Shown: piece after piece, positions 19,364 to 38,929 of the stretch | Numbering within the stretch: the first letter of the stretch is position 1 | Layout: each line of letters begins with the position of its first letter | From: Pelomonas aquatica | GTDB lineage: Bacteria > Pseudomonadota > Gammaproteobacteria > Burkholderiales > Burkholderiaceae_C | DNA length: 64,000 nucleotides | Assembly: GCF_026712205.1 (NCBI RefSeq) | Contig: NZ_JAPPUW010000001.1 | Coordinates: 124,001 to 188,000 of the forward strand | Direction: 5' to 3' | Notes under the pieces: generated by a model | Database searches by the model: none | What the model was told of the DNA's origin: nothing | The model's input: the letters and a program-made list of their open reading frames with translations, nothing else | Translations under genes and position numbers: made by a program

Positions 19364-19372
19364 GGATTCAAC

Positions 19373-19603
19373 CTAGAAACGGCAGTTGGGCGCGCCCGAG
19401 GGACCGCCGAGGCGGGCTGCCGGCAAGGCGCGACGGCGAAGTGGGCTGATGCCCACGAGGAGGAGCAACGCCGCCAGCGGCCCGAAGCGGCGGTCCCTCG
19501 GGCGTGCAGCGCTGCTCATCGGAGTGGTGAACGTCGAGATGGGCACAGGGTGTTGATGTCCTGAGACTTCGAGAAGCAGCAAGCGACCACCTGCCGTTTC
19601 TAG
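19373..19603. repeat. Family B nested palindrome, copy B1
   Basis: Outer arms CTAGAAACGGCAG (19373-19385) and CTGCCGTTTCTAG (19591-19603) are perfect 13-bp inverted repeats. Inside, 20-bp arms at 19390-19409 and 19488-19507 match at 19 of 20 positions around CCCGAGGGACCGCCG. The core between them (about 19421-19477) reads GGCAAGGCGCGACGGCGAAG, hairpin GTGGGC-TGAT-GCCCAC, then GAGGAGGAGCAACGCCG. The same core pattern occurs in B2, B3 and B4. It fills the 300 bp between the LysR start and the GNAT gene; nothing coding is seen there. Confidence 0.8.
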
Positions 19604-19663
19604 ATTAATTGTTCCACGCGAAGGAAAAGTGAGTCGTTTTTCCACCCGTTTATCGTTAGGCCG

Positions 19664-20488
19664 TCAATCTCTATCGTTCTGGCCATGGGCGACATCGCCC
19701 CCGCTGCCAGCCTGCGCCAGGTGCTGAGCCTGCCCGCCATCGTGCCCGGCCATGCGCCGGATCCCATCCACGACTTCCTGCGCGAGGCGGCCCGCCGTTC
19801 GCTCGGCTAGCCAGCCCGAGCGCCTGAGCACGGCGACGTTCATCGTCGTGCGCGTGGCGAAACCCAGGCTTGCGTAGAGCGCGATCGCAGCGGTGTTGGT
19901 CGTCCAGGCGTGCAGGAAGGGTTGGGCGTCGCGGCGCTGGATGGCGGCCGTCACGGCGGCCGACAGCCGCCGCGCCAGGCCGCGCCCGCGGAAGTCCGGG
20001 TGGGTGCAGACGCCGCTGACCTCGACATGGCCGGGGAAGCGCATGCGCTCGCCGGCCATCGCGGCCAGGCGGCCGCCAATGCGCAGGCCGATGAAGCGGC
20101 CCATCGTGTGCGTCCTCGCGAGGAAGGGGCCGGGCTCGGTCAGCGTCGCCAGCGCCAGCATCTCGGCGGCGTCGGCATCGCCGAGCAGCTGCAGGCCGGC
20201 TTCGTCGGCCTCGACGGCGCGCGCCGCGACCATCTGCACGGCGGTCGCGGCCTTCACGGCCACCAGGCCCGGCGGCACGACGACGGGCCGCGCCTGCGCC
20301 AGGTAGACGACGTCGTCGCCGGGCCGCACGAGCTCGGCCAGCGCGGCCAGGCTGTCCGCGCCGTCGTCGCGCGCGGCGGCAAAGCGGTTGATGTCCGGCT
20401 TGAAGCGCCGCGCCAGCGCGCCGCCGTCGGCCCAATGCGGCTGGTCTTGCAGGCTGGACCAGACGGGCTGGTCGAGAGCGTGGCTCAT
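19664..20488 (-). CDS. GNAT family N-acetyltransferase
   Basis: A 274-residue GNAT (FR47-like) acetyltransferase. The acetyl-CoA binding core is at about residues 150-200: VEVSGVCTHPDFRGRGLARR (motif A, R/Q-x-x-G-x-G/A type), then LHAWTTNTAAIALYASLGF (motif B). The N-terminal 100 residues (DINRFAAARDD ... YLAQARPVVVP) are typical of this two-lobed subgroup. The last 50 residues are of low complexity and may not be folded. It overlaps the MarR gene by 4 nt (ATGA) and is co-transcribed with it, a common pairing in which the regulator controls the acetyltransferase. Substrate unknown. Confidence 0.9.
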   Translation of the reverse strand: MSHALDQPVWSSLQDQPHWADGGALARRFKPDINRFAAARDDGADSLAALAELVRPGDDVVYLAQARPVVVPPGLVAVKAATAVQMVAARAVEADEAGLQLLGDADAAEMLALATLTEPGPFLARTHTMGRFIGLRIGGRLAAMAGERMRFPGHVEVSGVCTHPDFRGRGLARRLSAAVTAAIQRRDAQPFLHAWTTNTAAIALYASLGFATRTTMNVAVLRRSGWLAERTAGRLAQEVVDGIRRMAGHDGGQAQHLAQAGSGGDVAHGQNDRD

Positions 20489-20979
20489 GGCGGTGGATTC
20501 CTGATGCGCTGCGCCAGCGGCTGTTCGGCCAGCGCGTCTTCCAGTGCGGCCAGCTGCGCCAGCAGGTCGCCGTGCAGGCCGGCGCAGGCCTCGGCCACGG
20601 CGGCCTCGATGACGGGCCAGGCCCTGGCCTTGGAGCGCTGCACGAGGCCGCGGCCCTTGCGGCTCAGCGCGATGCGGCGCACGCGCCGGTCCGCCTCGGC
20701 GGCACCGGACTCGACGAGGCCGTCCTCCTCCAGCCCGCGCAGCGAGCGCGTGACGACGGGCTGGCTGACGCCCACCGCCTGGCTCAGCTCGCCGACGCTC
20801 AGGGGCCCCAGCCGGTCCAGCGCCGCCAGCAGCGGGAACCAGGCCGCCGGCTGTTCGAAGCCGCGCTCGGCCAGCACCGCCTGCGTCTGCGCCTGCAGCG
20901 TCTCGCCGATGCGCTTCAGCCGCGTGCCCAGGCTGAGATGGCCCAGCTCCTTGACGACGTCTTCGATGCCCATATGCAT
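20485..20979 (-). CDS. MarR family transcriptional regulator
   Basis: A 164-residue winged-helix MarR protein. The recognition region is LSVGELSQAVGVSQPVVTRS, followed by the wing with the conserved Asp/Arg (EADRRVRRIALSRKGRGL). Two ATGs are possible (20979 and 20973). Both lie in or next to an inverted repeat, TGCATA-N6-TATGCA, that overlaps the start, which suggests autoregulation. The gene is the first of a two-gene operon with the GNAT gene. Confidence 0.9.
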   Translation of the reverse strand: MHMGIEDVVKELGHLSLGTRLKRIGETLQAQTQAVLAERGFEQPAAWFPLLAALDRLGPLSVGELSQAVGVSQPVVTRSLRGLEEDGLVESGAAEADRRVRRIALSRKGRGLVQRSKARAWPVIEAAVAEACAGLHGDLLAQLAALEDALAEQPLAQRIRNPPP

Positions 20980-20992
20980 ATCATGCTATGCA
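20975..20992. promoter_or_regulatory. Candidate MarR operator overlapping the start codon
   Basis: A perfect inverted repeat, TGCATA (20975-20980) and TATGCA (20987-20992), spaced by TCATGC. It covers the marR start codon (20977-20979) and stands out as an AT-rich spot in GC-rich DNA. The geometry (6-bp half-sites, 6-bp spacer) fits a dimeric MarR site; autoregulation is inferred. Confidence 0.5.
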
Positions 20993-21032
20993 ATAGATCG
21001 AAGGCCGTCAACGGCTGCATGGCGGCGGGCTC

Positions 21033-21137
21033 ATACGGGTTTGCAATCAACGTGATAACAAGGCGCGAAGCCGCAGACAGTGCTTTAGCACGGCAAGGCG
21101 AAGCAACGCAGTTAGCGCGTTGATTGCGAAGCCGTAT
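21033..21137. repeat. Family B nested palindrome, copy B2
   Basis: Arms ATACGGGTTTGCAATCAACG (21033-21052) and CGTTGATTGCGAAGCCGTAT (21118-21137) pair at 17 of 20 positions. The right arm ends in the first base of the lysin stop codon complement (TCA 21137-21139). The core is TGATAACAAGGCGCGAAGCC, hairpin GTGC-TTTA-GCAC, then GGCAAGGCGAAGCAACGCAG and TTAGCG. This core is the simplest form of family B. It occupies the space between the lysin and marR genes, both on the minus strand. Confidence 0.8.
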
Positions 21138-22363
21138 CAGATGCCGAACAGCGCCTTGGCGCGCAAGAGCAGGCGGCGCCGGTCGTCGAGGCCGTTGAGG
21201 CCGCCGTTGACACGCCGGGTCAGCGTCGTCAGGTCGTCGGCATCGGCCAGGCTGTTGAGGTTCTTTTTCGTCCAGAACCAGCCGGCCACGTCGACGCAGA
21301 GCTGGGGGTCGGTCTCGACGAGCTCGGGGTGGGCCAGCAGCTCGGCCTCGCGGCCGATGTCGCGGCCGTAGTCGGCGTAGTTCGCGCGGCCGGTCAGCTG
21401 GATCAGGCCGCGGCCCTTGAAGCGCGGGCCGTCGCCGGGCTGGGTGTTGCCCAGATCCAGCCGGCCTTCGTAGGCCTGGCCGCTGGCGATCTCGGCGCGG
21501 AAGCGGAACTCGCCCGACTCGTGCCCCACCTGGGCCAGGAAATGCGCCTGGCGCAGCGGCGAGTCGATGCTGCGGTCGGCCATGACCTGCTGCAGGCGCG
21601 GCGAGAAGTCTGCCGCGTCGCTGTCCTTGGCATGCAGGAAGAGCAGCTCCAGCCAGGGCGGCAGCAGCGCGTCGGGCAGGGATTCGCACAGGCTCAGCAG
21701 CGTCGCGCCGTTGGCGTCGACACGCCCGTCCGGCTCGGCCTGGGCCAGCGCGCTGCGCTGGAAGGCCATGATCGCGGTGAGGGACTTCTGGCCGAAGGCG
21801 CCGTCGCAGCTCAGCGGGCCGTCGGGCAGCGTCATGCGACCGGCCGCGCCGCAGAGGTTGAGCAGTTGCTGCACGGTCTCGACGTCGTCGTGCGCATTGC
21901 TGCATTGCACGCCGACAGGCCCCGTCGTCAGGCCCTTGCCGCGCGCCGCGGCGGGGGCGGCTGGTGCGGCAACCAGCGCGGCAGCAGGCGCGGGCGCGGC
22001 GGCACTGGCCTCGCGGCGCTCGAAATGCGTCAGGTCCTTGAAATTGCCCCAGTTGCCGCCCCAGACGTTGGCCGGATCCAGCCCTTCCCAGTATTGGCCG
22101 AGCGGGCGCAGCGTGTCGGCGTCGCTGACGAGCTGGGCGCTGCCATCGCCCGCCTCGCGGAAGAAGTTCAGGTCGATGGCCAGCCGCTTCAGGTGCTGGC
22201 TGGACATCGTCGCGCTGCGGCCGTTCTGGATGTGCAGGGCCTGCTGCTCGGGCGTGCGATAGAGCTCGCCGCCCGCGACGCCGAACCCGGCCGCGTCGGC
22301 CCGGCGCAGCAGCTCGCCGAGCTGCTGCATGAAGACCGACTGCTCGCGCACGAGGCCGTTCAC
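21137..22363 (-). CDS. Three-domain lysin: M15 peptidase, peptidoglycan-binding, GH19
   Basis: A 408-residue murein hydrolase fused from three parts. Residues 1 to about 120 are an M15 (VanY/L-alanyl-D-glutamate peptidase type) domain with zinc ligands visible in SSQHLKRLAID and GNWGNFKDLTHFE. After an Ala/Pro linker, about 150-225 resembles a peptidoglycan-binding domain (DDVETVQQLLNLCG ... CDGAFGQKSLTAIMAFQ). From about 240 a GH19 chitinase/lysozyme-like domain follows, with catalytic Glu in AQVGHESGEF and the segment RFKGRGLIQLTGRANYADYG. No signal peptide is present, so export would need the holin encoded just upstream (4-nt overlap). No other phage genes surround it. Confidence 0.88.
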   Translation of the reverse strand: MNGLVREQSVFMQQLGELLRRADAAGFGVAGGELYRTPEQQALHIQNGRSATMSSQHLKRLAIDLNFFREAGDGSAQLVSDADTLRPLGQYWEGLDPANVWGGNWGNFKDLTHFERREASAAAPAPAAALVAAPAAPAAARGKGLTTGPVGVQCSNAHDDVETVQQLLNLCGAAGRMTLPDGPLSCDGAFGQKSLTAIMAFQRSALAQAEPDGRVDANGATLLSLCESLPDALLPPWLELLFLHAKDSDAADFSPRLQQVMADRSIDSPLRQAHFLAQVGHESGEFRFRAEIASGQAYEGRLDLGNTQPGDGPRFKGRGLIQLTGRANYADYGRDIGREAELLAHPELVETDPQLCVDVAGWFWTKKNLNSLADADDLTTLTRRVNGGLNGLDDRRRLLLRAKALFGI

Positions 22364-23001
22364 GGGCGGCCCCCGCGGTCGCGCGACGGATCGGCCCGCA
22401 GCGCCTGGGTCTGCGCGCGCATCGCGTCGCCGATCCGGTCGTCCTTGGCCTTGCTGCCGGCGCTGGAGCCGAAGAAATACTGGATGATGGCCGACAGCGA
22501 CACGCCGAGCAGGAAGCCCAGCACCGTGTCGATGACGCGCGAGCGCGGGTCATTGGCCTCGTAGCGCGGCCCGAACGCGGCCACGAAGATGAAGGCGAAG
22601 GTCAGCAGCGTGATGACGCTGGCATAGACGTAGATGAAGCGCCGCACCCAGGGATCCTGGTTGGCCATCGCCGCCTCCTGCATCTGGCGCGCATTGGCGC
22701 GGTCAGCGGCGGCGATGCGCTCCAGCTCGATGCGGTCGCCGTCGCCCTGCTGGCGCAGCGCCAGCAGCTTGGACTGGCCGTCGAACTCGAACTGCTTCAG
22801 CCGGGCCCACTGGGCGTCGCCGAGCTTGTTCTCGGCGGCATCGTTGATGTCGATGCCGGTCTGGTCGTGGATGAGCTGCGCCATCTCGGCGGCGCCCTGG
22901 CCGGGCGGGCCGCGGAACACGCCGCTGAGCAGGTCCAGGCCCTTCTGGGCGAGCCGGGACGCAATCGCCGGCTGCGCCGCAGCGATCAATGGGATCGGCA
23001 T
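22360..23001 (-). CDS. Holin family protein (GTA/3TM type)
   Basis: A 213-residue protein of the 3TM holin (gene-transfer-agent holin) family. The N-terminal half is soluble and helical (LIHDQTGIDINDAAENKLGD, then WARLKQFEFDGQ and a charged coiled-coil-like stretch ending REANARQ-like). Two strong membrane segments follow: FIYVYASVITLLTFAFIFVA and VIDTVLGFLLGVSLSAIIQYF. Holins permeabilise the inner membrane so that a lysin without a signal peptide can reach the wall. The gene overlaps the three-domain lysin by 4 nt. The pair stands alone, away from any tail, capsid or integrase gene. Confidence 0.8.
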   Translation of the reverse strand: MPIPLIAAAQPAIASRLAQKGLDLLSGVFRGPPGQGAAEMAQLIHDQTGIDINDAAENKLGDAQWARLKQFEFDGQSKLLALRQQGDGDRIELERIAAADRANARQMQEAAMANQDPWVRRFIYVYASVITLLTFAFIFVAAFGPRYEANDPRSRVIDTVLGFLLGVSLSAIIQYFFGSSAGSKAKDDRIGDAMRAQTQALRADPSRDRGGRP

Positions 23002-23080
23002 TCCAGGCTCCCGGTCAGGCGCGACCTGCGGAGCTTAGGCGGGCGGCCCCGGCCGCCACATCCTTCCGACTAACGAAGGT

Positions 23081-23284
23081 CTAAGGAAGCGTCTTGCAGC
23101 TCGGTTTGCAGACCACCTCGTTGCGGCCGAGCAGCCGGATGGACTGCAGGCTGGTCGGGGCGCGGTGCTTGCCGCACTTGAAGCAGGAGCGGGTGTGGCC
23201 GCTGCCGAGGAAGGGCGATCCGCCCACCTTGGATGCATAACGCAGGCCATCTTCGCGAACCGCGGTCACGGTGTCTTTGCTCAT
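23081..23284 (-). CDS. Small Cys-motif protein flanking tdk (copy 1)
   Basis: A 67-residue protein from ATG 23284 to TAG 23081-23083. It has the pattern DGLRYASKVGGSPF, then CFKCGKHRAP, LLGRNEVVCKPSC and a short end; the CxxC and CxxxC pairs suggest a small zinc ribbon. A 78-residue paralogue with the same motif order lies on the other side of tdk (24117-24353), on the same strand. No named family was recognised. The equal spacing of conserved blocks and good codon bias support a real gene. A role in nucleic-acid binding is only a guess from the zinc-ribbon-like pattern. Confidence 0.75.
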   Translation of the reverse strand: MSKDTVTAVREDGLRYASKVGGSPFLGSGHTRSCFKCGKHRAPTSLQSIRLLGRNEVVCKPSCKTLP

Positions 23285-23449
23285 CTTCGTTCGGGTCGGG
23301 ACGAAACGAGTATTGACGCACAGGGAAGATGACAGCACCACCTCGCAAGCCCCAGTGTCCGGCCCCGCCGGCCCCAAAACACGGGCTTTCCCTGCCCCGA
23401 CCTGAGGGGACAGGCTGCGGGGACAATGCCCCCTGCTCCCTCCGACCCC

Positions 23450-24010
23450 ATGGCCAAGCTGTTTTTCCGTTATGCGGCGATGAACGCCGGCAAGTCCACC
23501 GCGCTGCTGCAGGTGGCGCACAACTACGAGGAGCGCGGCCACCGCGTGCGCATCTTCACCGCCCGCCTGGACGACCGCTACGGCCGCGGCTACGTCACGT
23601 CGCGGCTGGGGCCACAGCGCGAGGCCGAGCAGTTCGACGCCGACACCGACTTCGTCGCGCTGATGGGCGACAACCCCGGCATCGCCTGCATCCTCATCGA
23701 CGAGGCGCAGTTCCTGTCCAGGCGCCAGGTGCAGCAGCTGCACGAGATGGCGCATCTGCGCAACCTGCCGGCCATCTGCTATGGCCTGCGCACGGACTTC
23801 CAGGGTGAACTCTTCCCCGGCTCGGCCGCGCTGCTGGCCCTGGCCGACGAGATGGACGAGATGAAGACCATCTGCGACTGCGGCCGCAAGGCGACGATGA
23901 ACATGCGCGTCGACGCGAACAACCGCAAGGTCACCGAGGGCGCCCAGGTCGAGATCGGCGGCAATGTGCGCTACCGCTCGGTCTGCGGCCGCTGCTTCCG
24001 CCAGGGCTGA
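23450..24010 (+). CDS. tdk: Thymidine kinase
   Basis: A 186-residue type II thymidine kinase for thymidine salvage. Features are LFFRYAAMNAGKSTALLQ (P-loop), FTARLDDRYGRG, ILIDEAQFLSRRQVQQL (Walker B with catalytic Glu), CYGLRTDFQGELFPGS (lasso/thymidine site), and the structural zinc site CDCGRKA ... CGRCF. ATG at 23450 was chosen to match the usual N-terminus (AKLFFRY); an in-frame ATG at 23426 would add eight residues. It is divergent from one small Cys protein gene and convergent with its paralogue. Confidence 0.94.
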   Translation: MAKLFFRYAAMNAGKSTALLQVAHNYEERGHRVRIFTARLDDRYGRGYVTSRLGPQREAEQFDADTDFVALMGDNPGIACILIDEAQFLSRRQVQQLHEMAHLRNLPAICYGLRTDFQGELFPGSAALLALADEMDEMKTICDCGRKATMNMRVDANNRKVTEGAQVEIGGNVRYRSVCGRCFRQG

Positions 24011-24027
24011 ACGCAAGGCGGCGCTGC

Positions 24028-24085
24028 TCGATTCATTGACGGGCCAAGGCCCGCCAATGAATCGACCCCCTTGTATGCTCGGGGG
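24028..24085. terminator. Strong hairpins between tdk and the convergent small gene
   Basis: TCGATTCATTG-ACGGGCC-AA-GGCCCGC-CAATGAATCGA (24028-24065) forms an 11-bp plus 6-bp stem with one mismatch and an AA loop, followed by a CCCCC...GGGGG hairpin (24066-24085). Neither has a U-run. The position between two convergent genes suggests a bidirectional transcription barrier or a palindromic repeat; the long, AT-containing stem is unlike the GC-rich neighbours. Confidence 0.5.
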
Positions 24086-24116
24086 TCAGCCCGCGTACCC
24101 GCGGGCCGGGGGCCCG

Positions 24117-24353
24117 CTATTTAGCGGCAATCTGCGCGTCCAGCTCCTTGCAGGACGGCGAGCAGACCGGCTGGGACTTGCCGAGCAGCTTCTTGGACTT
24201 GAGCATCGCGCGCGGGCGGTGCTTGCCGCAGAGGAAGCACGACATCGTCGCTGCGCCGAAAGAGGAGGTCGCCGCGAACGGCGAGCCCGGGGCTTTGGAG
24301 CGGTAGCGCAGACCATCCGCTTCGATGGTGGTCTTGGTGGTTTCTTTGGCCAC
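24117..24353 (-). CDS. Small Cys-motif protein flanking tdk (copy 2)
   Basis: A 78-residue protein starting at GTG 24353 and ending at TAG 24117-24119. Motif order matches the protein at 23081-23284: DGLRYRSKAPGSPF, CFLCGKHRPRAMLKSKKLLG, then VCSPSCKEL. It has an extra Ala/Ser loop after GSPF and a longer tail. The two copies share roughly half of their residues by eye, concentrated around the Cys pairs. GTG is the only suitable start near the homology boundary. Function is unknown; a small zinc-binding protein is the best description. Confidence 0.72.
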   Translation of the reverse strand: MAKETTKTTIEADGLRYRSKAPGSPFAATSSFGAATMSCFLCGKHRPRAMLKSKKLLGKSQPVCSPSCKELDAQIAAK

Positions 24354-24447
24354 GCTGGTCCTGTCGAAGAGTGTTGTAGGGGGGGCGCCGGGCAGGCGCT
24401 CTGGCCCCGTATTTTCCACCATGCGCGAACCACCCGCCCTAGGACTT

Positions 24448-25215
24448 TCAACAACCCTTAAATCTGGCCGGTCGTTTGCCCGCCCAGGCGGCCTGTCCCT
24501 CGGCCAGATCGGCCGAATCGCGCGCCCTCTCGATGTCGGCCTGCAGCCGCGCCGCGTCGAGCCGGCCGGCGGCGATCGCATTGAGGTGCCGCTTCATCGG
24601 CAGCAGGGCCAGCGGCGCCATGCCGAGCAGTTCGGCCGTCAGCGCGGCCAGGGCGGCGTCCAGCGTGTCGACGTCGGGCAGCAGCCGGTCCAGATAGCCG
24701 CAGGACAGCAGCGCGGGCGCGTCCAGCGTGCGGCCGGCCAGCAGCACCTGCTTGGCCGTCGCCAGGCCCAGACGGTCGACGAAGCGGCGCAGGCCGCCGG
24801 CGTAGAAATGCAGGCCGATGCGCGCGGCCGGCACGAACATCTCGACGGCCGGCGCGCCAAGGCGGAAGTCGCAGGCCAGGCCCAGGTCGGACGCACCGCC
24901 GTAGACGCCGCCGTGCAGGCGCGCGATGGTGATCGGGCGGGCGGCCTCCAGCGCATCGGCCAGTTCGCCGAAGCGCGCGCCGGCGTCGATGGCGCCGAGC
25001 GCCCCAAGGTCGAAGCCGCTGCAGAAATGCCGGCCCTCGCCGGCCAGCACGAGCACGCGCACGGCCGCGGCGGCATTCACGTCGTCGAGCAGCCCGCGCA
25101 GCACGCCGAGGTCGCCGACCGCGAGGCGGTTGGCCTGGCGCGGGCGCCGCAGCGTGATGCGGGCCAGGCCGCCGTCGACCTGCAGCAAGGGGGGCTGGCC
25201 CCCGCTCATGCGCAA
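24448..25215 (-). CDS. Enoyl-CoA hydratase/isomerase family protein
   Basis: A 255-residue crotonase-fold protein. The CoA-binding/oxyanion segments are present: GEGRHFCSGFDLGAL and RLHGGVYGGASDLGLACDFR. The hydratase-type catalytic glutamates are not evident: where the family usually has a Glu ahead of GG-x-x-R, this protein reads IGLHFYAGGLRRFV. It may therefore be an isomerase, a hydrolase or another crotonase activity, and the CoA substrate is unknown. Starts at 25215 or 25209 are both possible. It is divergent from the phosphatase gene and has no beta-oxidation partners nearby. Confidence 0.85.
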   Translation of the reverse strand: MRMSGGQPPLLQVDGGLARITLRRPRQANRLAVGDLGVLRGLLDDVNAAAAVRVLVLAGEGRHFCSGFDLGALGAIDAGARFGELADALEAARPITIARLHGGVYGGASDLGLACDFRLGAPAVEMFVPAARIGLHFYAGGLRRFVDRLGLATAKQVLLAGRTLDAPALLSCGYLDRLLPDVDTLDAALAALTAELLGMAPLALLPMKRHLNAIAAGRLDAARLQADIERARDSADLAEGQAAWAGKRPARFKGC

Positions 25216-25326
25216 GCTCCGTGCACGGCGTGTCCAGGGGCGGATGCGGTCGGCTTCATCATGGGTTCAGCTGGCCGCATATTGTGGCGACGTAAGCTCG
25301 GGCATCCGCGTTGTCACGAAACCGTC

Positions 25327-26988
25327 ATGCAGCACACCCGCCGCCGCCTGCTGGGCCTGACCGTCACCCTTGCCCTGGCCGCCTGCGCCACGACCGCACC
25401 ACCGCCCCCAGCCCCGGCGCCCGCGCCACAACGCCCCAAGCTGCTGGTGCTGGTGGCCATCGACGGCCTGCCGATGCGCCAGGTCACCGGCTACCGCGAC
25501 CAGCTGGCCGCCGACGGCTTCGCCCGCTTCCTGGACCACGGCCGCTGGTTCTCCGACGCCCACCACGGCCACGGCCACACGGTGACGGCGGCCGGCCACT
25601 CGGTGATGCTGTCCGGCGCCTACCCGCAGCGCAGCGGCATCGTCGGCAACGAATGGCGCGACCCGGCCAGCGGCGAGCTGGTCTACAACACCGGCGACGC
25701 CGCCTACACCTACCTCGACAACCCGACGGCGCCGCTGGCGGGCACCAGCCCGCGCAACCTCAAGGTCGAGACCCTGGGCGACGTGCTGCGCAGGCGCTCG
25801 CCCGAGTCCAAGGTCATCGGCATCTCCGGCAAGGACCGCGGCGCCATCCTGCCCGCGGGCCACTTGGGGCAGGCCTATATGTACATGGGCGAGACGGGCC
25901 AGTTCTCGTCCAGCACCTACTACATGGCCGCGCTGCCGCAGTGGGTCAAGGACTTCAACGCCGCCAGGCCGGCCGACGCCTTCTTCAAGAAGACCTGGGC
26001 GCCCTTGCTCCCCGAGGCGGCCTATGCCCGCTCGGTGCCGGACGGCCAGCCCTGGCAGATCGCCAGCGGCAACGGCAACCGTCTGCCCGCCGTCATCGGC
26101 GACCAGATGGACGCCCCCGGCCCACGCTTCTACGGCAACCTGCTCGCCTCGCCCTTCGGCGACGAGCTGACGCTGGCCTTCGCCCGCGCCGCGGTCAGGA
26201 ACGAAAAGCTGGGCCAGCGCGGCGTGCAGGACATCCTGTCGGTCAGCCTGTCCAGCCACGACTACATCAACCACGCCTTCGGCCCCGAGTCGCGCCTGTC
26301 GCACGACCACCTGCTGCAGCTGGACCGCCATCTGCAGGCCTTCTTCCGCTTCCTGGACCAGGAAGTCGGCGCCGGCAACTATGTGCTGACGCTGACGGCC
26401 GACCACGGCTTCACCGACACGCCGGAATGGGCCGCCACCCAGGGCCGGGATGCCGGCCGCTTCACCAATGGTCCGTCGCTGGCAGCCGTCAACGCAGCGC
26501 TGGCCGCGAAGTTCGGCGTCGACAAGCTGGCCTGGAACTTCTCCGCCTCCGGCCTGCTGCTGAACGAGAAGCTGGCCACCGACAGCGGCCTGAAGTTCAC
26601 CGATGTGGAAGCCGCCGCCCGCGACGAACTGCTGAAGCTGCCCGGCGTGGCCACCGTGTTCACGCGCGAGCAGCTGCTGGGCAACGACAGCACGACGCCC
26701 TACCTCGAAGCCATGCGCAAGTCCTACGACCCGACTCGCGCGGCGCAGCTGCAGATCGTGCTGAAGCCGAACTGGATCTTCAGCTACCGCCCGGGCGGCA
26801 CCACCCACGGCAGCCCGCACCGCCACGACACCCATGTGCCGCTGCTGTTCTGGGGCCCGGCCTATGTCGGCCAGGGCGAGATGAAGACCCGCGTCGAGAT
26901 CGCCGACCTGGCGCCCACGCTGGCCGGGCTCGCCGGCCTGCCCGCACCGGGCCAGGCCCAGGGCCACGACCTGAAGCTCAAGCCGTAG
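25327..26988 (+). CDS. PafA-like alkaline phosphatase/phosphodiesterase lipoprotein
   Basis: A 553-residue secreted enzyme of the type I phosphodiesterase / PafA alkaline phosphatase superfamily, releasing phosphate from organic esters in the periplasm. It starts with a lipoprotein signal (lipobox LAAC, Cys at about residue 20) and a Pro-rich linker. Metal and catalytic motifs are AIDGLPM (first Asp), HTVTAAGHSVMLSGAYPQRSG (Thr nucleophile region), SSHDYINHAFGPES, TADHGF and THGSPHRHDTHVPLLFWG. The length is normal. It is a single gene; its stop codon lies in the left arm of palindrome B3. No Pho box could be identified. Confidence 0.92.
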   Translation: MQHTRRRLLGLTVTLALAACATTAPPPPAPAPAPQRPKLLVLVAIDGLPMRQVTGYRDQLAADGFARFLDHGRWFSDAHHGHGHTVTAAGHSVMLSGAYPQRSGIVGNEWRDPASGELVYNTGDAAYTYLDNPTAPLAGTSPRNLKVETLGDVLRRRSPESKVIGISGKDRGAILPAGHLGQAYMYMGETGQFSSSTYYMAALPQWVKDFNAARPADAFFKKTWAPLLPEAAYARSVPDGQPWQIASGNGNRLPAVIGDQMDAPGPRFYGNLLASPFGDELTLAFARAAVRNEKLGQRGVQDILSVSLSSHDYINHAFGPESRLSHDHLLQLDRHLQAFFRFLDQEVGAGNYVLTLTADHGFTDTPEWAATQGRDAGRFTNGPSLAAVNAALAAKFGVDKLAWNFSASGLLLNEKLATDSGLKFTDVEAAARDELLKLPGVATVFTREQLLGNDSTTPYLEAMRKSYDPTRAAQLQIVLKPNWIFSYRPGGTTHGSPHRHDTHVPLLFWGPAYVGQGEMKTRVEIADLAPTLAGLAGLPAPGQAQGHDLKLKP

Positions 26989-27256
26989 GAGCGTGGGCGG
27001 CAGAGATAGCGGCCCGCGCCGGGGCGAGTTGCGGGGCCAGCCAAGACGCCGGTGAGGCGTTGGATGGATGCCAACAACGAGCCGGCAACGCAGGATGGCC
27101 CCGCAAATCGCCCCGGCCCGAAGGGTTGAGCCCGCATGGGGGGCGATTCGGCGTTGCGCCGCTGGCCCGGGCGGCAAGCCCGGGCTGCGCACCGCGCCTT
27201 GCCTCGCCCCCCATGCGGGCTCAACGCGGGCCGCTATCTCTGCCGCCCACGCTCCT
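26987..27256. repeat. Family B composite palindrome, copy B3
   Basis: Outer arms 26987-27018 and 27225-27256 are a perfect 32-bp inverted repeat (AGGAGCGTGGGCGGCAGAGA...). Inside lie two hairpin domains. Domain 1 has stem CCGGGGCGAGTTGCGGGGCC (27019-27038) paired with 27097-27116 (19/20) around the core GACGCCGGTGAGGC-GTTGG...CCAAC-AACGAGCCGGCAACG. Domain 2 has a perfect 21-bp stem (27126-27146 with 27204-27224) around the core in the opposite orientation, with a GCCCGGGC hairpin. B4 has the same layout. The arms contain the stop codons of both flanking genes. Confidence 0.88.
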
Positions 27257-27889: not shown

Positions 27890-27911
27890 GGCCCGATTCT
27901 GGGCCGTTACG

Positions 27912-28902: not shown

Positions 28903-28905
28903 GCC

Positions 28906-30860: not shown

Positions 30861-30866
30861 CGTCGC

Positions 30867-31927: not shown

Positions 31928-31953
31928 GCAATTCCCCTGCGTGCCTACGGTGT

Positions 31954-31976: not shown

Positions 31977-32120
31977 ATTATCAGGTGGAGCTGCGCCCGC
32001 CGCTCCCCCCCCAATCAGGGTGAGGAGCAATCCGGCGGATGATGAGAGACCTCGTAACGGCCCAGCCGTTGCAGCGATGGCGGCTCCGGCTTGCCGACGC
32101 CGAGCCGGATTCGCAGAAGC

Positions 32121-32342: not shown

Positions 32343-32635
32343 GGCAAACCTCTTGGGGTGGACTGCCGACAACCGCATCGGCTCCGTGCAGCCAGTGTGG
32401 GGGATGTGCATGACAGCGGAACGCCCATCTGTGAGTAAATATTGCCGCTTGTGCAAATACCACACACCCCGCACGGGCCGCCACCCCAATAGGCATCGGG
32501 GTTCGTGGCCGATCTGCATCGGCCGGCCGGCGTTGCTCGATTGCAAATCGAAGACATTGCTCCCCAGCTCTGTTGATCCAAATGGCGGTCGATGGGATTA
32601 AGCTCCGCGCTCCGTCTGCCCCCGGGCTTTCCCGC
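32343..32635. other. Lower-GC intergenic region with a 15-bp palindrome
   Basis: About 290 bp with clearly lower GC than its surroundings separate the 73-aa peptide gene (minus) from a small membrane peptide gene (plus). It contains the perfect palindrome TCGATT-GCA-AATCGA (32537-32551), a possible operator, and AATATTTAC-rich sequence at about 32436-32446. A minus-strand frame with many Cys/Gly codons crosses it, but its continuation overlaps the peptide gene out of frame and it is not called. Confidence 0.4.
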
Positions 32636-32815
32636 ATGACATCAGCAGTACTCAAATGGCTCGCCAACGGCGTGATCGGCCTCGTCGTGGCCAGCACGCT
32701 CTGGATGGCCGAGGCAATTCCATCCAGCCCGCGCGGCGCCGCATCACTGATGCTGGCCCAGATGGCGGCCTCGGCCGACCATGCCGCCTCGGCGCCGTCC
32801 ACCATCCCGCATTGA
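32636..32815 (+). CDS. 59-residue predicted single-helix membrane peptide
   Basis: From ATG 32636 to TGA 32813-32815. One hydrophobic helix follows a short start (MTSAVLKWLANGVIGLVVAS, then TLWMAEA); the tail is Ala/Ser/Pro-rich and ends in HAASAPSTIPH. A longer frame from 32573 is possible. No good Shine-Dalgarno is present. Its stop codon abuts the stop of the convergent argP gene (TGA|TCA). It resembles the one-helix peptide at 18274 in size and plan but not in sequence. Function unknown. Confidence 0.45.
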   Translation: MTSAVLKWLANGVIGLVVASTLWMAEAIPSSPRGAASLMLAQMAASADHAASAPSTIPH

Positions 32816-33721
32816 TCAACCCAGGGCCTGCCGCGCGCCTTCGGCCAGGGCCAGGCCGATCTGGTCCAGCAGCGCGCCACGCCCCTGCAGCTGCCACTGA
32901 TGCCAATACAGGGCGACGTCGATGCCGGTCTCCGGCTTCAGCACGACGAGCCGCCCCACCTGCACCCAGGGCCGCACCTGGATCTCGGGCGCCACGCCCA
33001 CGCCCCAGCCCATGACGGCCGCGTTCACATAGGCCTCGCTGGACGGCACGAAGCGCTCGCGCAGCCGCGGTGAACGCACGCCGAAGGCCTGCGACACCCA
33101 CTGCGCCTGGCTGTCGTCCTTGCGGTTGAAGACCAGGAAGGGCGTGTCGGCGAAATTGCCCGCATGCAGCCCGTCGGGCAGGCGGGCGGCGCAAAAGTCA
33201 GGGCTCGCTACCGCCACGTAGCGCATGACGCCAAGCGCCTGCACGCGGCAGCCCCGCAGCGCCTCGGCCACGGTCGACACGCAACCCAGCACGGCGCCCT
33301 GGCGCAGGCTGTCGTGGGTGAAGTCCTGGTCGTCGACGACCAGCTCCAGCCCGTAGCCCTCGCGCAGGCCCCGCTGGACGAGGCCGTCCAGCGCCGGCAG
33401 CACCCAGGTCGCGAGGCTGTCGGCATTGACGGCGATGGCCAGGCGCGACTGCGGCGCGACGCGCTCGCCCAGCTCCCGGGCAACGTCCACGCGCAAAGCC
33501 TGCAACTGGCGGGCGAAACGCAGCAGCACCTTGCCGGCCTCGGTCAGGCGCAAAGGCCGCGAACGCACCACCAGCGGCTGGCCGACCTGGGTCTCCAACG
33601 CCCGCAGTCGCTGCGAGACGGCGCTCTGGGTGATCGCCAGCCGCTGGGCGGCACGCTCGAAACCCTGCTCGTCGGCCAGCGCGGCAAGGCAGTCCAGCGC
33701 GGCGGGGTCGAATTCATTCAT
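32816..33721 (-). CDS. argP: LysR-type regulator ArgP
   Basis: A 301-residue LysR protein closely matching ArgP (IciA), the lysine/arginine-responsive regulator. The N-terminus (DPAALDCLAALADEQGFERA, then AQRLAITQSAVSQRLRALE) and the effector-domain stretch LAIAVNADSLATWVLPAL are characteristic. It is divergent from an argO/lysE-type exporter gene with 73 bp between, the standard arrangement in which ArgP activates argO when arginine is abundant. No frame damage is seen. Confidence 0.93.
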   Translation of the reverse strand: MNEFDPAALDCLAALADEQGFERAAQRLAITQSAVSQRLRALETQVGQPLVVRSRPLRLTEAGKVLLRFARQLQALRVDVARELGERVAPQSRLAIAVNADSLATWVLPALDGLVQRGLREGYGLELVVDDQDFTHDSLRQGAVLGCVSTVAEALRGCRVQALGVMRYVAVASPDFCAARLPDGLHAGNFADTPFLVFNRKDDSQAQWVSQAFGVRSPRLRERFVPSSEAYVNAAVMGWGVGVAPEIQVRPWVQVGRLVVLKPETGIDVALYWHQWQLQGRGALLDQIGLALAEGARQALG

Positions 33722-33794
33722 AAGAACTACTAATGTACTGGGAAGAATATGAATGAAACTTCTTTAACACGGTCCGGCTGAGCAGAATTCGCGG
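33722..33794. promoter_or_regulatory. argP-argO divergent control region
   Basis: The 73-bp AT-rich gap between the two start codons contains ACTACTAATGTACTGGGAAG and AATATGAATGAAACTTC, in marked contrast to the GC-rich genes. ArgP binds T-N11-A-type sites in such divergent regions; exact boxes could not be fixed by eye. Confidence 0.5.
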
Positions 33795-34418
33795 ATGCCC
33801 GCGCCGCCCGCCACCGCCGTCTTCGCCCAGGGCTGGGCCATGGGCGCCGCCCTCATCCTCGCCATCGGCGCGCAGAACGCGCTGGTGCTGCGCCAGGGCC
33901 TGCGTCGCGAGCATGTCGGCGCCGTCATCGCGGTCTGCACGCTGTCGGACTGGCTGCTGATCGCGCTGGGCGTCTTCGGCCTCGGCGCCCTCATCCAGGC
34001 CAGCCCTGCGCTGCTCGAAGCCTTCCGCTTCGGCGGCGCCGCCTTCCTGCTCGGTTATGCGCTGCTGGCGGCGCGGCGCGCCTGGCGGCCCGGTGCCGGG
34101 CTGCAGGCCGCCGGCAGCGCGTCCAGCCTGGGCGCGACGCTGTCGGCCGCCTTCGCCTTCACCTATCTGAACCCCCACGTCTACCTGGACACCGTCGTGC
34201 TGCTCGGCGGCCTGGGCGCACGCCAGCCGGCCGGGCTGCGCGCGGCCTTCGCGGCCGGGGCCGGCCTCGCGTCGGCGATGTGGTTCGGCCTGCTCGGCTT
34301 CGGCGCGGCGGCCGCGGCGCCCAGGCTGCAAGGCCCGCGCGCCTGGCGGCTCATCGATGCCCTCGTCGCTTTGCTGATGGGCGCCTTGGGTTTACAACTC
34401 CTGCTGCAACCGCTCTAA
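33795..34418 (+). CDS. argO: LysE/ArgO family amino-acid exporter
   Basis: A 207-residue inner-membrane protein of the LysE superfamily that exports arginine or lysine. Six hydrophobic segments are visible; the family signature GAALILAIGAQNALVLRQGL occurs near the N-terminus, and FAFTYLNPHVYLDTVVLLG in the fourth segment carries the conserved NPxxxxD motif. Divergent from argP, which fits regulation by amino-acid level. dadA follows after 20 nt on the same strand, so the two may be expressed together. Confidence 0.92.
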   Translation: MPAPPATAVFAQGWAMGAALILAIGAQNALVLRQGLRREHVGAVIAVCTLSDWLLIALGVFGLGALIQASPALLEAFRFGGAAFLLGYALLAARRAWRPGAGLQAAGSASSLGATLSAAFAFTYLNPHVYLDTVVLLGGLGARQPAGLRAAFAAGAGLASAMWFGLLGFGAAAAAPRLQGPRAWRLIDALVALLMGALGLQLLLQPL

Positions 34419-34438
34419 GAAAACAAGAAGGGCCTCCC

Positions 34439-35713
34439 ATGAAGATCGTCGTTCTCGGCGCCGGCATCATCGGCATCGCCACCGCCTGGTATCTGCTGGA
34501 CGAAGGCCACGAGGTCGTCGTCGTCGACCGCCAGGCCGATGCCGCGCTGGAGACCAGCTTCGCCAACGGCGCGCAGATCTCGGTCAGCTTCTGCGAGCCC
34601 TGGGCCAATGCCGGCGCGCCCTTCAAGGTGGCCAAGTGGCTGCTGCGCGACGACTCGCCGCTGCTGTTCCGCCCGCGCCTGGACCCCAACCAGTGGCGCT
34701 GGGGCCTGGCCTTCCTGATGCAGTGCACGACGGCGGCCTTCGAGCGCAACGTCGAGGAACTGGTGCAGCTCGGCCGCTATTCGCACCAGTCGCTGAAGGC
34801 CCTGGTCGACCGCACCGGCATCGAGTACGACCGCCTGGAGCGCGGCATCCTGCACTTCTTCTCCAGCCAGGCCGACTTCGACAACGGTGCCGCCGCCGCC
34901 GAGATCATGCGCCGCCACGGCGTGGACCGCCGCGTGCTCGGCCGCGACGAGGTGCTCCAGGTCGAGCCGGCGCTGGCCGCCTTCGGCAGCCGCATCTTCG
35001 GCGGCACCTTCACGCCCAGCGACGAGAGCGGCGACGCCAAGGTCTTCACGCAGAAGCTGGCGCGCCTGTGCGAGCAGCGCGGCGCGCAGTTCCTCTACGA
35101 GCACGACATCCTCGGCCTGCAGCGCGCCGGCGACGCCATCGAGGCCGTGCAGCTCGCGCACACGCGCAGCGGCGAGCGCAAGGCCTTGAAGGCCGACGCC
35201 TTCGTCGCCGCGATGGGCTCCTACACGCCCGGGCTGCTGCGCCCGCTCGGCGAGTTCCTGAACATCTACCCGGCCAAGGGCTACTCGGCCACGCTGCGGC
35301 TGAAGAAGCCCGAGGCGGCCAGCGTCGTCAGCCTGCTGGACGACACGCGCAAGATCGCGATCTCGCGCCTGGGCGGCCACATCCGCATCGCCGGCACGGC
35401 CGAGCTGTCGGGCTTCGACCTCAACCTGAACTCGGCCACGGCCAAGGTGCGCTGCGCGGCGCTGGTGCGGCGCTACGAGGAGCTCTTCCCCGGCGTGGCC
35501 GACACCAGCGAGCCCAACTACTGGACCGGCCTGCGCCCCAGCACGCCGACCAACATCCCCTGCATCGGCCGCAGCCGGAAGGCGCGCAACCTGTGGATCA
35601 ATGCCGGCCACGGCACGCTGGGCTGGACCCACGGCGCCGGCTCGGGCCATGCGCTGGCCGAACTGGTCGCCGGCCGCCGGCCGGACATGGCCTTCGGCTT
35701 CTACGGTCTTTGA
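34439..35713 (+). CDS. dadA: D-amino acid dehydrogenase small subunit
   Basis: A 424-residue FAD-dependent D-amino acid dehydrogenase (DadA) that oxidises D-amino acids, mainly D-alanine, to keto acids and feeds electrons to the respiratory chain. The FAD-binding Rossmann motif is IVVLGAGIIGIATAWYL; SFANGAQIS, YPAKGYSATL, ISRLGGHIRIAG and GHGTLGWTHGAGSGHALAEL are diagnostic. ATG at 34439 follows GGGCC only, a weak ribosome site. Alanine racemase is not adjacent; here the gene follows argO, hinting at amino-acid catabolism linked to export. A family A element follows the stop. Confidence 0.94.
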   Translation: MKIVVLGAGIIGIATAWYLLDEGHEVVVVDRQADAALETSFANGAQISVSFCEPWANAGAPFKVAKWLLRDDSPLLFRPRLDPNQWRWGLAFLMQCTTAAFERNVEELVQLGRYSHQSLKALVDRTGIEYDRLERGILHFFSSQADFDNGAAAAEIMRRHGVDRRVLGRDEVLQVEPALAAFGSRIFGGTFTPSDESGDAKVFTQKLARLCEQRGAQFLYEHDILGLQRAGDAIEAVQLAHTRSGERKALKADAFVAAMGSYTPGLLRPLGEFLNIYPAKGYSATLRLKKPEAASVVSLLDDTRKIAISRLGGHIRIAGTAELSGFDLNLNSATAKVRCAALVRRYEELFPGVADTSEPNYWTGLRPSTPTNIPCIGRSRKARNLWINAGHGTLGWTHGAGSGHALAELVAGRRPDMAFGFYGL

Positions 35714-35832
35714 GGCCCCTCGTCCAAGGCGTACCTTGGCCGGTCCCCCGCGGGGACGGCGATGCTCGCGGCATCGAGCCGCGAGCACATCGCCAGGAGG
35801 GCCGGCTTGGGGCGGCCCGGCGCTCGGCCCAC
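35714..35832 (+). repeat. Family A post-stop multi-hairpin element, copy A3
   Basis: Starts directly after the dadA stop (TGA 35711-35713). It has the CCAAGG-CGTA-CCTTGG hairpin as in A1, the GGTCCCCCGCGGGGAC palindrome, and the outer stem GGCGATG / CATCGCC with inner stem GCTCGCGGC / GCCGCGAGC as in A2, so it mixes the hairpin types of A1 and A2. It ends about 11 bp before the convergent prsT stop. Confidence 0.85.
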
Positions 35833-35843
35833 TTGTGGATGAC

Positions 35844-38630
35844 TCAGAGCGTCTTCAGCAGCGCCTCGACCTGCTTCTGCTGCGGGAACTTCGGCCCCAG
35901 CTTGGCCAGGTCGTCCAGCTCGGTCTTGGCGGCGGCCTTGTCGCCCGACTGCAGCAGGATCTGCGCGAGGTTGAGGCGGTACATCGGCTGGTCGGGCTGG
36001 TCGCCGACCAGCTGGCGCTGCACGCTGATGGCCTTGGAGAAGTCCTTGTCGTTGGCCAGCACGGTGGCATAGGTGTCGCGCAGCGCGCCGTCCTCGGGGT
36101 TGAGCTTGAGGCCGCGCTCGGCCAGCTCGCGCGCGCCGGGCTTGCCGGCCTTGCTGCGCAGCCAGGCGACGTTGTTGATGAAGACGATGGCGTCGGGGCT
36201 GCGCTTGAGCAGGGCCTCGTAGCGCGTCAGCGCCCCGTCCAGGTCGCCGCGCGCCAGCGTCACGTCGGCCGCGGCGACCGCGAAGGCACCGTCCTGCGGA
36301 TGGGCGGCCTGCCACTGGGTCTCGAAGGCCAGCGCCTCGTCGCGCTTCTTCGCGGCCAGCAGCAGCGCGAACAGGCGCGGCGCGGCATCGTGGGGCTGGC
36401 GCAGCAGCGTGGCCTTGCGCAGCGCGGCGATGGCCGCGTCGAAATGCTGGCGGCCGGCCTCGATGTCGGCCTCGGCGATCAGCGCATAGGCTTCCTGCGG
36501 GTGCTTCTTCTGGCGCTCGCGCAGCGCGGCCAGCGCCTCGTCGACGCGGCCCTGGCGCGCGGCCAGCTGGATCAGCAGGCGCTGGGCGGCGACGGATGCC
36601 GGCTCGGCCTCCAGCGCACGCCTGACCTCGCGCTCGGCGCCGGCGTAGTCCTGCTCGACGACGCGCAGCTGCGCCAGGCCCAGCCAGCCGGTCGCCCGCG
36701 ACGGCGACAGCGCGGTGAGCTGGGTGTAGGTCTTGCCGGCCTGGCCCTTGTCGCCGGAGGCGAGCTGGGTGCGCGCCAGGCGCTCCAGCAGGTCGGGGTT
36801 CTGCGGCAGCGCGGCGGAAGCTTCCTGCGCGGCCTGGGCCGCGCCGGCGGTGTCGCCCAGGCGCAGCTTCTGGTCGATCAGCGCCAGCCGCAGGCCGGGC
36901 TCGGTGGGCTCGGCACGCACGGCGGCGGCCAGCACCTCGGTCACGCGCTCGGGCGGCGCCTGGGTCTGCAGCAGCAGCTCGGCCAGCGCCAGGCGGGCCT
37001 GCGGCGAATGCTCCTGGCTCGCGATGAAGCCCTCCAGGCGCTTGATGGCGGCCTCGTTGCGGCCCGCCTGCGTGTCGATGGCGACCAGGCCGAGCACGGC
37101 CGGCAGATAGCCGGCATCGGCCTTCAGCGCCGCGTCGAAGGCCGCCTGGGCCGCGGCCACGTCCTTGCGGGCCAGCTGGATGCGGCCGCGCAGGCCGTCG
37201 GGCACGGGGCTGCCCTTCATCTTGGGCGCGAGCCTGTCGACGGCGGCCAGCGCGGCGGACAGGTCGCCGCGGCGCGCCAGCGCGTTGATCAGCATCAGGT
37301 CGTAGCCGCTGCCGTCGACGTCCTTGGCGGCGATGTCGCGCAGCTGGTTCAAGGCCGCGTCGGCCTTGGCGCGCGTGGCGCCACCGCCCGCGGCGCCGTC
37401 GCGCGCGATGGCCGTCAGCGCCAGCGCCGCGCTGGTCTTGGGGTCGTCGGGACGCAGCTTGGCGGCGGCGCCGAAGGCCTGGTCGGCACCCTCGAAATTG
37501 CCCTGCATCAGCTGGGCCTTGCCGGCCAGCAGCAGGGTCTCGGCGTCGGCCTTGCCGCTGTCCAGCAGCGGGCGCAGCGTCTCCAGCGTCTTGGCCGGCG
37601 CGCGGCGCTGCAGCTGCAGGCCGGCGAACTGGCGGCGCAGCGCCAGGTCCTCGGGCGCGAGCTTGATGGCCTGGTTCAGCAGGTTCTCCGCATCGGGCAG
37701 TTCGCCGAGCTGCTGGTGGGCGCCCGCCGCCAGCCGCAGCAGCGGCAGGTAGTGGGGCATCAGCTTGAGCAGCGGCAGGGCCAGCTCGCGGGCCTTGGCG
37801 GCGTCGCCCTTGGCCAGCGCGAGCTGGGCCTGCAGGAAGCGGCCCTGCGGCTTCTTCGCGAGCGCGGGCGGCATCGCGTCGACCAGCCGGGTCGCCACGT
37901 CGAGCTGCTGGCGGCCGAAGGCCATGCGCACGAGCAGGGAGCGGGCGTCGTAGCTGCCCGGCTCCACCGCCAGCACCTGGGTCAGCACCGGCTCGGCGGC
38001 GTCGGGCTTGCCGCGCGCCAACAGCACCTCTGCCTTCAGCAGCAGGGCCTTGGCCGCCTTGGGGTTGCGCGCGAGCAGCTCGTCCAGCGCGGCCAGGGCC
38101 TCGTCCGGCAGGCTGGCGGCCAGCTTGGTGCGCGCGCCGGTGATGACGGCGCCCTCGGCCTCCGGCGTCAGCTGCAGCGCGCGCGCCGCGGCCACCTTGG
38201 CTTCGGGCAGGTTGCCCTGGGCCAGATAGGCCAGGGCCAGCTGCTGCTGCAGCCGGGACATGGCCTGCGGGTCGGCCAGGCTCTGGTCGCCGAACTCGGC
38301 GATGAGCTTGTGCGACTGGCCCGAGTTCAGCAGGGTCTCGGCCAGCAGCGGGATCAGCTCGTCGCGCGGCGCGCCCAGCTCCTGCGCGCGGCGCAGCTCG
38401 ATCTCGGCACCGGCCAGGTCGCCCCCCTCCAGCAGCGCCCTGCCCAGCCATTGCCGGCCCTTCACGCTGTCGGGGTTCTGCTGCAGCAGGTTCTTCAGCT
38501 CGATGGCGGCCCCGGCCGTGTCCTTCTGCTCCAGGCGCTTCTGCGCGGCGGCGAGCAGATCCTGCTCGGAGCGTTGGCCGCAGGCAGCCAGGGCGACAAC
38601 CAGGACGAGGGCAAAGGCGCGCGATTTCAT
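35844..38630 (-). CDS. prsT: PEP-CTERM system TPR-repeat lipoprotein
   Basis: A 928-residue lipoprotein with a lipobox (VVALAAC, Cys at about residue 20) followed by some twenty tetratricopeptide-like repeats over nearly its whole length. It matches PrsT, the TPR protein of PEP-CTERM/exosortase systems: the opening QRSEQDLLAAAQKRLEQKD, then GAAIELKNLLQQNPDS and RFLLGR-type GRQWLGRALL, are characteristic. It probably acts in the periplasm or outer membrane in exopolysaccharide or protein sorting linked to exosortase. AGGAG lies just upstream of ATG 38630. No exosortase, PEP-CTERM protein or polysaccharide gene is in the window. Confidence 0.85.
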   Translation of the reverse strand: MKSRAFALVLVVALAACGQRSEQDLLAAAQKRLEQKDTAGAAIELKNLLQQNPDSVKGRQWLGRALLEGGDLAGAEIELRRAQELGAPRDELIPLLAETLLNSGQSHKLIAEFGDQSLADPQAMSRLQQQLALAYLAQGNLPEAKVAAARALQLTPEAEGAVITGARTKLAASLPDEALAALDELLARNPKAAKALLLKAEVLLARGKPDAAEPVLTQVLAVEPGSYDARSLLVRMAFGRQQLDVATRLVDAMPPALAKKPQGRFLQAQLALAKGDAAKARELALPLLKLMPHYLPLLRLAAGAHQQLGELPDAENLLNQAIKLAPEDLALRRQFAGLQLQRRAPAKTLETLRPLLDSGKADAETLLLAGKAQLMQGNFEGADQAFGAAAKLRPDDPKTSAALALTAIARDGAAGGGATRAKADAALNQLRDIAAKDVDGSGYDLMLINALARRGDLSAALAAVDRLAPKMKGSPVPDGLRGRIQLARKDVAAAQAAFDAALKADAGYLPAVLGLVAIDTQAGRNEAAIKRLEGFIASQEHSPQARLALAELLLQTQAPPERVTEVLAAAVRAEPTEPGLRLALIDQKLRLGDTAGAAQAAQEASAALPQNPDLLERLARTQLASGDKGQAGKTYTQLTALSPSRATGWLGLAQLRVVEQDYAGAEREVRRALEAEPASVAAQRLLIQLAARQGRVDEALAALRERQKKHPQEAYALIAEADIEAGRQHFDAAIAALRKATLLRQPHDAAPRLFALLLAAKKRDEALAFETQWQAAHPQDGAFAVAAADVTLARGDLDGALTRYEALLKRSPDAIVFINNVAWLRSKAGKPGARELAERGLKLNPEDGALRDTYATVLANDKDFSKAISVQRQLVGDQPDQPMYRLNLAQILLQSGDKAAAKTELDDLAKLGPKFPQQKQVEALLKTL

Positions 38631-38661
38631 GGGGTCTCCTTGTCGGCGCGGATTGTGTTCC

Positions 38662-38929
38662 AGGAGGCTGTCGGGCTTGGGACCGGGTGCGCGCCGAGGC
38701 GAGTTGCGGGGCAAGACTAGGCGCCGGCGAGGCGTTGGATTCTCCCCAACAACGAGCCGGCAACGACGAATTGCCCCGCAAATCGCCTCGGCCCTTCGGG
38801 TTGGGTCTGCCAGGGGGCTGAGGCGTTGTTGCTCCTCCTCGCGGGCGCGAGCCCGCAGCGTCGTCGTCGCCTAGCCTCAGCCCCCTGGCAGACCCAACGC
38901 GCACCCGGCCCCAAGCCCGACAGCCTCCT
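38662..38929. repeat. Family B composite palindrome, copy B4
   Basis: Outer arms 38662-38693 and 38898-38929 form a 32-bp inverted repeat (31/32), with a sequence (AGGAGGCTGTCGGGCTTGGG...) unrelated to the 32-bp arms of B3 beyond the first few bases. Domain 1: stem 38694-38712 with 38773-38791 around GCGCCGGCGAGGC-GTTGG...CCAAC-AACGAGCCGGCAACG. Domain 2: perfect 22-bp stem (38801-38822 with 38876-38897) around the core in reverse orientation, with a GCGGGC-TCGC-GCCCGC hairpin. It lies between the divergent prsT and yegD genes and ends in the yegD -10-like box. Confidence 0.88.

Follow-up and report, generated by a model that had tools for sequence, protein, structure and literature searches.

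Four loci in the 64,000-nucleotide stretch of the Pelomonas aquatica genome analysed here (‘the window’) are mobile, palindromic elements related to the Correia repeats of Neisseria. Very probably, they are insertions of non-coding, MITE-like elements that form one superfamily with Correia, in which the pairing of the arms is maintained, the element is moved and the core is recognised in the ways that we infer below. The loci comprise four copies from three subfamilies (SF1, SF2 and SF3) of small non-coding elements (Table 1). Searching the whole window with our model R1 at full sensitivity, we find six core hairpins, all within the four loci (E 1e-16 to 2.3e-6), and no further candidate below E 0.02, the value of the next best. 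An earlier reading of the letters alone (the ‘sequence-only reading’) is borne out as regards the core, its positions and the self-complementarity of the arms. We amend that reading for two of the loci (26987 and 38662), each of which holds a pair of core hairpins, first + and then −, that face one another and are enclosed by an outer stem of ~32 bp, nearly perfect, within elements of 266–268 bp; each is therefore a three-way structure, and their left hairpins are closely similar. The earlier description of the arms as unrelated between copies holds between subfamilies but not within them, where arms are shared, including with copies elsewhere.

Table 1. Core-bearing elements of the window and their component features (position 1 is the first letter of the window; E-values are for model R1)
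Feature	Coordinates	Strand	Description
SF2 element	19372–19604	+	233 bp, asymmetric; ends CCTAGAAACGGCAG ... CTGCCGTTTCTAGA; outer stem, core hairpin, then core-less second part
Core hairpin of SF2 element	19408–19489	+	E 1e-16
SF1 element	21034–21136	+	103 bp, single hairpin; ends TACGGG ... CCGTA
Core hairpin of SF1 element	21043–21127	+	E 2.2e-16
TCA target duplication, left copy of SF1 element	21031–21033	.	right copy 21137–21139
SF3 element	26988–27255	+	two hairpins; ends GGAGCG ... CGCTCC; left TA 26986–26987, right TG
Left core hairpin of SF3 26988 element	27026–27109	+	diverged core CAAGACGCC...; E 4.1e-9
Right core hairpin of SF3 26988 element	27133–27217	-	E 8.4e-9
SF3 element	38663–38928	+	two hairpins; ends GGAGGC ... 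GCCTCC; right TA 38929–38930, left TA minus its T
Left core hairpin of SF3 38663 element	38701–38784	+	diverged core CTAGGCGCC...; E 2.3e-6
Right core hairpin of SF3 38663 element	38808–38890	-	E 3.8e-12

Moving inwards along the fold (alignment A1), the arms lead to a C-G pair, an AAG bulge on the 5′ side, the pairing GCG/CGC, a CAA bulge on the 3′ side and a second C-G pair; inward of this the stem continues with Watson-Crick pairs or, alternatively, with tandem G·A steps that have single pairs between them, and ends in a free apical stem. Tandem G·A and 5′-UG-3′/3′-GU-5′ pairs are both present in core-bearing elements. For the core letters that were written into our search pattern, conservation follows from the way in which the sequences were collected; the G at column 70, partner of the first C, is absent from that pattern and nevertheless invariant in 67/67 sequences. 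Columns 27 and 59 form a swapping pair (C-G 22, A-U 21, G-C 12, U-A 5, U-G 1, unpaired 6), and all of the free arm pairs (16/16) vary on both sides. The sequence-only reading had named an absence of further copies, or of covariation in the arms, as the finding that would count against it; instead, copies are many and A1 reaches a covariation score of 0.559, where shuffles give 0.148 and slid structures 0.12–0.20. The proportion of paired cells in A1 is 76.8% vs 52.7%, a percentage inflated by the construction of the alignment from 67 of 79 candidates, 12 odd or weakly paired ones having been dropped. Pairs that change on both sides are no more numerous in A1 (24) than in shuffles (23.5). At the gathering score, Rfam has no match in the window, the sub-threshold matches at two of the loci being nearly all to generic hairpin (miRNA) models.

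Within the P. aquatica genome there are 83 model matches at E ≤ 0.01, and the exact core pattern is found 30 times, vs 0 for the reversed pattern; 11 of these 30 are of SF1 type and 6 of SF2 type (8 with two diverged ones). Elements of SF2 measure 233–238 bp in 27/28 references and 222 in the remaining one; the set was reduced from 30 loci to 28 elements (L232 failed the end match and L237 had none), of which 25 enter alignment A3 and 27 are distinct, L029 and L233 being the same element. By record titles, SF2 occurs in Beta-, Gamma- and Deltaproteobacteria among the matches listed. The paired hairpins of two-hairpin elements lie 105–110 nt apart in the order + then −, with one exception in which the second is flipped (L226); the 37 pairs used for the mispair counts below were picked in that order. 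Another locus (L145) has two + matches, 162 nt apart. Some subfamilies have inner arms common to loci from different genomes. Two side observations concern the own genome: three loci (L283, L284 and L290) are solo outer-stem palindromes of ~58 bp, carrying the ends of a two-hairpin subfamily with no hairpins inside, and in an otherwise alike pair of elements (L016 and L012) the second hairpin is inverted between its arms. The window itself also holds, at 35711–35830, a different palindromic repeat of ~120 bp with no core match; it has >30 matches in a congener (G003) and is missing from the orthologous site there.

Beyond the genus, the scan of other genomes with a covariance model, which the sequence-only reading had proposed, recovers further copies: among 200 genomes from the same phylum (Pseudomonadota), 60 contain the core at E ≤ 1e-4, in a scan that scored at most 22 candidates per genome under stricter filters and with E-values that are rough, as for all models built here. 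A pattern scan of named genomes gave at least 113 stretches; among the 80 matches listed, the titles are mostly of Beta-, Gamma- and Deltaproteobacteria, with Planctomycetota, Gemmatimonadetes, Omnitrophica and others also present, though the titles of bins may err. Plasmid searches gave no element match, five Mycobacterium records at E 6e-3 having the look of chance, and one Caballeronia plasmid site was matched with a hand-typed query; of four matches in viral contigs, none has arms better than shuffles. Almost every classifiable core hairpin (108/109) lies outside genes predicted with a home-made caller, a count that excludes hairpins without a predicted gene within 700 bases on both sides. 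Relative to neighbouring genes the core hairpins have no preferred orientation (of the single hairpins, 23 are sense, 31 antisense, 20 convergent and 14 divergent), and local GC skew around them shows no bias either. The elements are thus short, dispersed in many copies, bounded by inverted ends and a target duplication, and non-coding as judged from size and lists of open reading frames: the features of a MITE.

That the loci are mobile units, one of the possibilities raised in the sequence-only reading, is supported by empty sites in related strains together with target duplications. Three of the window sites (21033, 26987 and 38662) are empty in G003, with the targets TCA, TA and TA, respectively. 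At 21033, TCA occurs once in the empty site and twice in the window; at 26987 and 38662 the empty sites read CCC-TA-GCGATC and TTCC-TA-GAATC, and one copy of each window TA pair is altered (TG on the right at 26987, the left T lost at 38662). G003 carries elements like that of 38662 at two other places (95 and 93% identity), each with TA on both sides. The fourth element, at 19373, is missing from all of the congeners fetched (8/8, of 19), where the spacer is too diverged to provide a base-exact joint. Equal 3-bp flanks are found in 9/11 SF1 copies of the own genome and equal 5-bp flanks in 16/27 distinct SF2 elements of other genomes, such that the duplication follows the type of element: TA for two-hairpin elements, TCA or TGA for single-hairpin elements and, as observed in other genomes, a 5-bp duplication for 234-bp elements. 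Two of the window insertions also touch stop codons: the right TCA at 21033 doubles as the stop of a minus-strand ORF (21137–22363), and at 26986–26988 the TA plus the first G of the element preserves the TAG with which the upstream gene stops; G003 has TAG at its empty site as well.

Pairing of the arms beats each of 20 shuffles in 104/115 loci, and its score is ≥24 in 94/115; the 115 include the four viral loci, all of them failures, and leave out two at locus edges. Comparing two-hairpin copies of 80–98% identity (21 comparisons), we count 154 paired double changes where 24 are expected under independent change, the pairwise counts being non-independent; in the same comparisons, double changes that leave the bases unpaired number 6, and changes confined to one side 95, of which 28 give G·U, 28 give A·C and 39 are of other kinds. 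A single pair of loci (L228 and L230) differs by six double changes and one single change, and one copy in G003 has lost a single base from each arm at matching places. Such matched events point to the copying of one arm from the other, a route by which they arise easily and without which they would need two mutations and selection, a much harder course. It is therefore likely that the arms are kept paired by hairpin-templated correction, and the ‘palindrome-forming repair’ offered in the sequence-only reading is supported in this sense, as the likely reason that the arms stay paired.

Mispairs in the arms are also unevenly divided between the strands. Read on the core strand, 103 elements have 293 G·T mispairs vs 49 A·C, 55 of the 158 distinct elements being below the arm score and excluded from this count; by cluster, 44/55 lean towards G·T and 1/55 towards A·C. 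One-sided changes in single-hairpin and asymmetric groups run the same way (G·T 467 vs A·C 175, pairwise counts that are non-independent and take each pair in both directions), as do the standing mispairs in the hairpin arms of two-hairpin elements (33 vs 13); despite these biased standing mispairs, one-sided changes in two-hairpin elements have no strand bias (28 vs 28). The bias is weak in the outermost arms (18 vs 8) and absent from the outer stems of two-hairpin elements (G·T 20 vs A·C 27). An excess of G·T over A·C on the core strand indicates that one folded strand matters, and we think it likely that the core is read as a folded single strand, most clearly so in single-hairpin and asymmetric elements. 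For the proposal of a structured RNA this counts in part: the excess is in the core orientation, but a folded single strand of DNA could give the same bias.

The Correia repeat (also CREE or NEMIS) has been known since 1986 as a repeat of Neisseria that has no known mover and whose effects involve promoters, IHF and RNase III, and was called Neisseria-only in 2009, according to the passages cited from PMC2649163. Its core, CAAGGCGACGAAGCCGCAGRCAGTAC...GGCAAGGCGAGGCAACGC, is nearly that of the 21033 element, and among the window subfamilies SF1 is the closest to it. Model R2, trained on 65 sequences among which there are no SF1-type and no Correia elements, matches three elements (L331, L340 and L347) of a genome from the same order (G164, with 11 core matches) at E 3e-11 to 9e-11, and its sequence-only counterpart (R3) matches them at 1e-5 to 4e-5; both match the window loci too. 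The flank of one G164 element holds what we take to be the Neisseria uptake signal. All three start with a 29-letter variant of the Correia repeat, as printed in the part of PMC5039591 cited here. By these matches the window elements and the Neisseria repeats share both core and fold, and we propose that they be placed in one superfamily. Further likenesses are the inverted ends, a short target duplication, a length of ~100 bp and a mostly intergenic, non-coding character (from the descriptions cited in PMC2649163 and PMC2229807), and the inversion between L016 and L012 recalls that described for CREE in the cited part of PMC10969869. Saying this, the window elements differ in their ends, target duplications and genera and in having two-hairpin and 234-bp architectures; no 26-bp Correia repeat (TATAGTGGATTAA...) is present at their ends, which have CCTAG, TACGGG or GGAG instead, and on this sequence comparison we regard them as relatives and not as Correia elements proper. 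With the core common to many bacteria and the ends differing, the Neisseria repeat looks like one twig of a wider family. Among the literature matches listed we found no sequence-based report of Correia relatives outside Neisseria, and earlier reports may exist; a MITE in the dsrA intron of Candidatus Thiomargarita nelsonii was judged most similar in structure to Correia-like MITEs and has TA-type termini and a long hairpin, but a diverged inner sequence is reported for it, the comparison being by description only (from the portion cited of PMC4853749).

The chemistry suggested by the inverted ends and the target duplications is that of a DDE transposase. For Correia, the cited part of PMC2229807 describes movement by transposases as having no experimental support. 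IS630 loci in the genus number 11; ends could be proposed for 6 of them, and in three of these the IS630 ends (TA + GTCCACTG and TA + GTGTYYYGTCCC) resemble those of two element subfamilies, a likeness that fits the TA duplication, which IS630-family MITEs also have. Four loci of the own genome (L319, L323, L326 and L328) match IS630-family transposases, the ends of the last, GTGTTTCGTCCC / GTGTTCTGTCCC, adjoining TA. Unlike that family, the core does not follow IS630: IS630 genes occur in 14/60 core-bearing vs 52/140 other genomes and are lacking in two copy-rich ones (G042 and G066), which rules IS630 out as the general mover. Genes for Y1 transposases (Y1_Tnp) do accompany the core (47/60 vs 72/140 other genomes, p 0.0005, lineage not controlled), and G164, with its 11 copies, has neither kind of gene. 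Since IS630 does not track the core, Y1 does, and G164 has neither, we claim only DDE chemistry: the elements would be moved in trans by DDE transposases, perhaps by IS630-like ones in the case of some subfamilies that insert at TA. Searching six genomes with the exact end pattern AGRRCCTGTTCANR gave no longer (autonomous) element; its matches are element-sized pairs, short solo palindromes and single occurrences, and 16 places inspected include the 3 solo palindromes of ~58 bp and a smaller one (L293).

The most serious competitor to a single lineage with diverging arms is a set of unrelated MITE families into which one core module was brought repeatedly by recombination. In its favour are the unrelated ends, several in number, that surround one core, the existence of three duplication lengths and the solo outer stems that lack hairpins. 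Three lengths are odd for a single MITE lineage, a point that we count against our own view, as we do the altered TA copy at each of the two TA sites of the window and the absence of strand bias among one-sided changes in two-hairpin elements. Against capture, some subfamilies share inner arms across genomes, and divergence of arms whose pairing is kept can also make ends look unrelated. We judge such capture quite conceivable, if short of probable. Chance or purely mutational GC-rich palindromes, paired by template switching and with neither mobility nor a conserved core, would also yield paired double changes as templated copying does, yet they leave the conservation of the core over many genomes, the near-identity of many copies, the insertions with target duplications and the empty sites without an explanation, and we find the idea barely credible.

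Two further alternatives start from the folded strand. If the core were a conserved structured RNA, or RNA–protein site, with spread depending on the RNA and the DNA arms secondary, then the G·T excess (in one-sided changes as well as standing mispairs), the tandem G·A and 5′-UG-3′/3′-GU-5′ pairs and the invariant G outside the search pattern would all be expected; set against this are the lack of orientation bias to genes, the occurrence of the core on either strand in two-hairpin elements, the absence of the bias from outer stems, and the target duplications and inverted ends, such that we consider it possible but doubtful. Alternatively, the hairpin might be recognised as single-stranded DNA by an HUH/Y1-type or tyrosine-recombinase-type enzyme, like REPs or attC. 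REPINs consist of two facing hairpins, and integron attC is a site formed by the folding of one strand, in which few bases are fixed and the arms are free; the window elements resemble the former in their strand-specific, facing hairpins and the latter, by description, in a one-strand fold with free arms, and the association of Y1 with the core also agrees. The elements differ from REP/REPIN in having target duplications and inverted ends, with no linked RAYT seen in the own genome, and from attC in their long arms and target duplications; the Y1 association ignores lineage, the single Y1 gene of the own genome lies ~21 kb from the nearest core match, and G164 does without. Mobility of single-stranded DNA through a linked Y1/RAYT enzyme, as the sequence-only reading had suggested, is accordingly disfavoured, and we think recognition of this kind unlikely.

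Our preferred reading remains that of mobile, Correia-related elements inserted by DDE chemistry. While an element is folded, one arm would be recopied from its partner and complementarity thereby kept, to which selection acting near the core on one of the strands, when folded, would add; the core itself is probably kept because it is recognised by a reader of the folded single strand, whether RNA or single-stranded DNA. A precedent for such reading is the binding or cleavage of Correia transcripts by RNase III in Neisseria, as described in the portion of PMC2649163 cited. More speculatively, the folded core may travel as a module of its own, recognised as a single strand by a conserved factor and provided with ends to suit different transposases, through which palindromic DNA becomes mobile or is tolerated in many phyla; Correia and dozens of unnamed repeats would then be one deep class, an idea that we offer tentatively. 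Were the core a phylum-wide module of this sort, its action and its mover could be studied in tractable bacteria, and hundreds of divergent copies would be open to comparison. The elements are in addition a natural record of palindromic arms correcting each other, and what was regarded as a repeat peculiar to Neisseria now looks like a branch of a far wider family.
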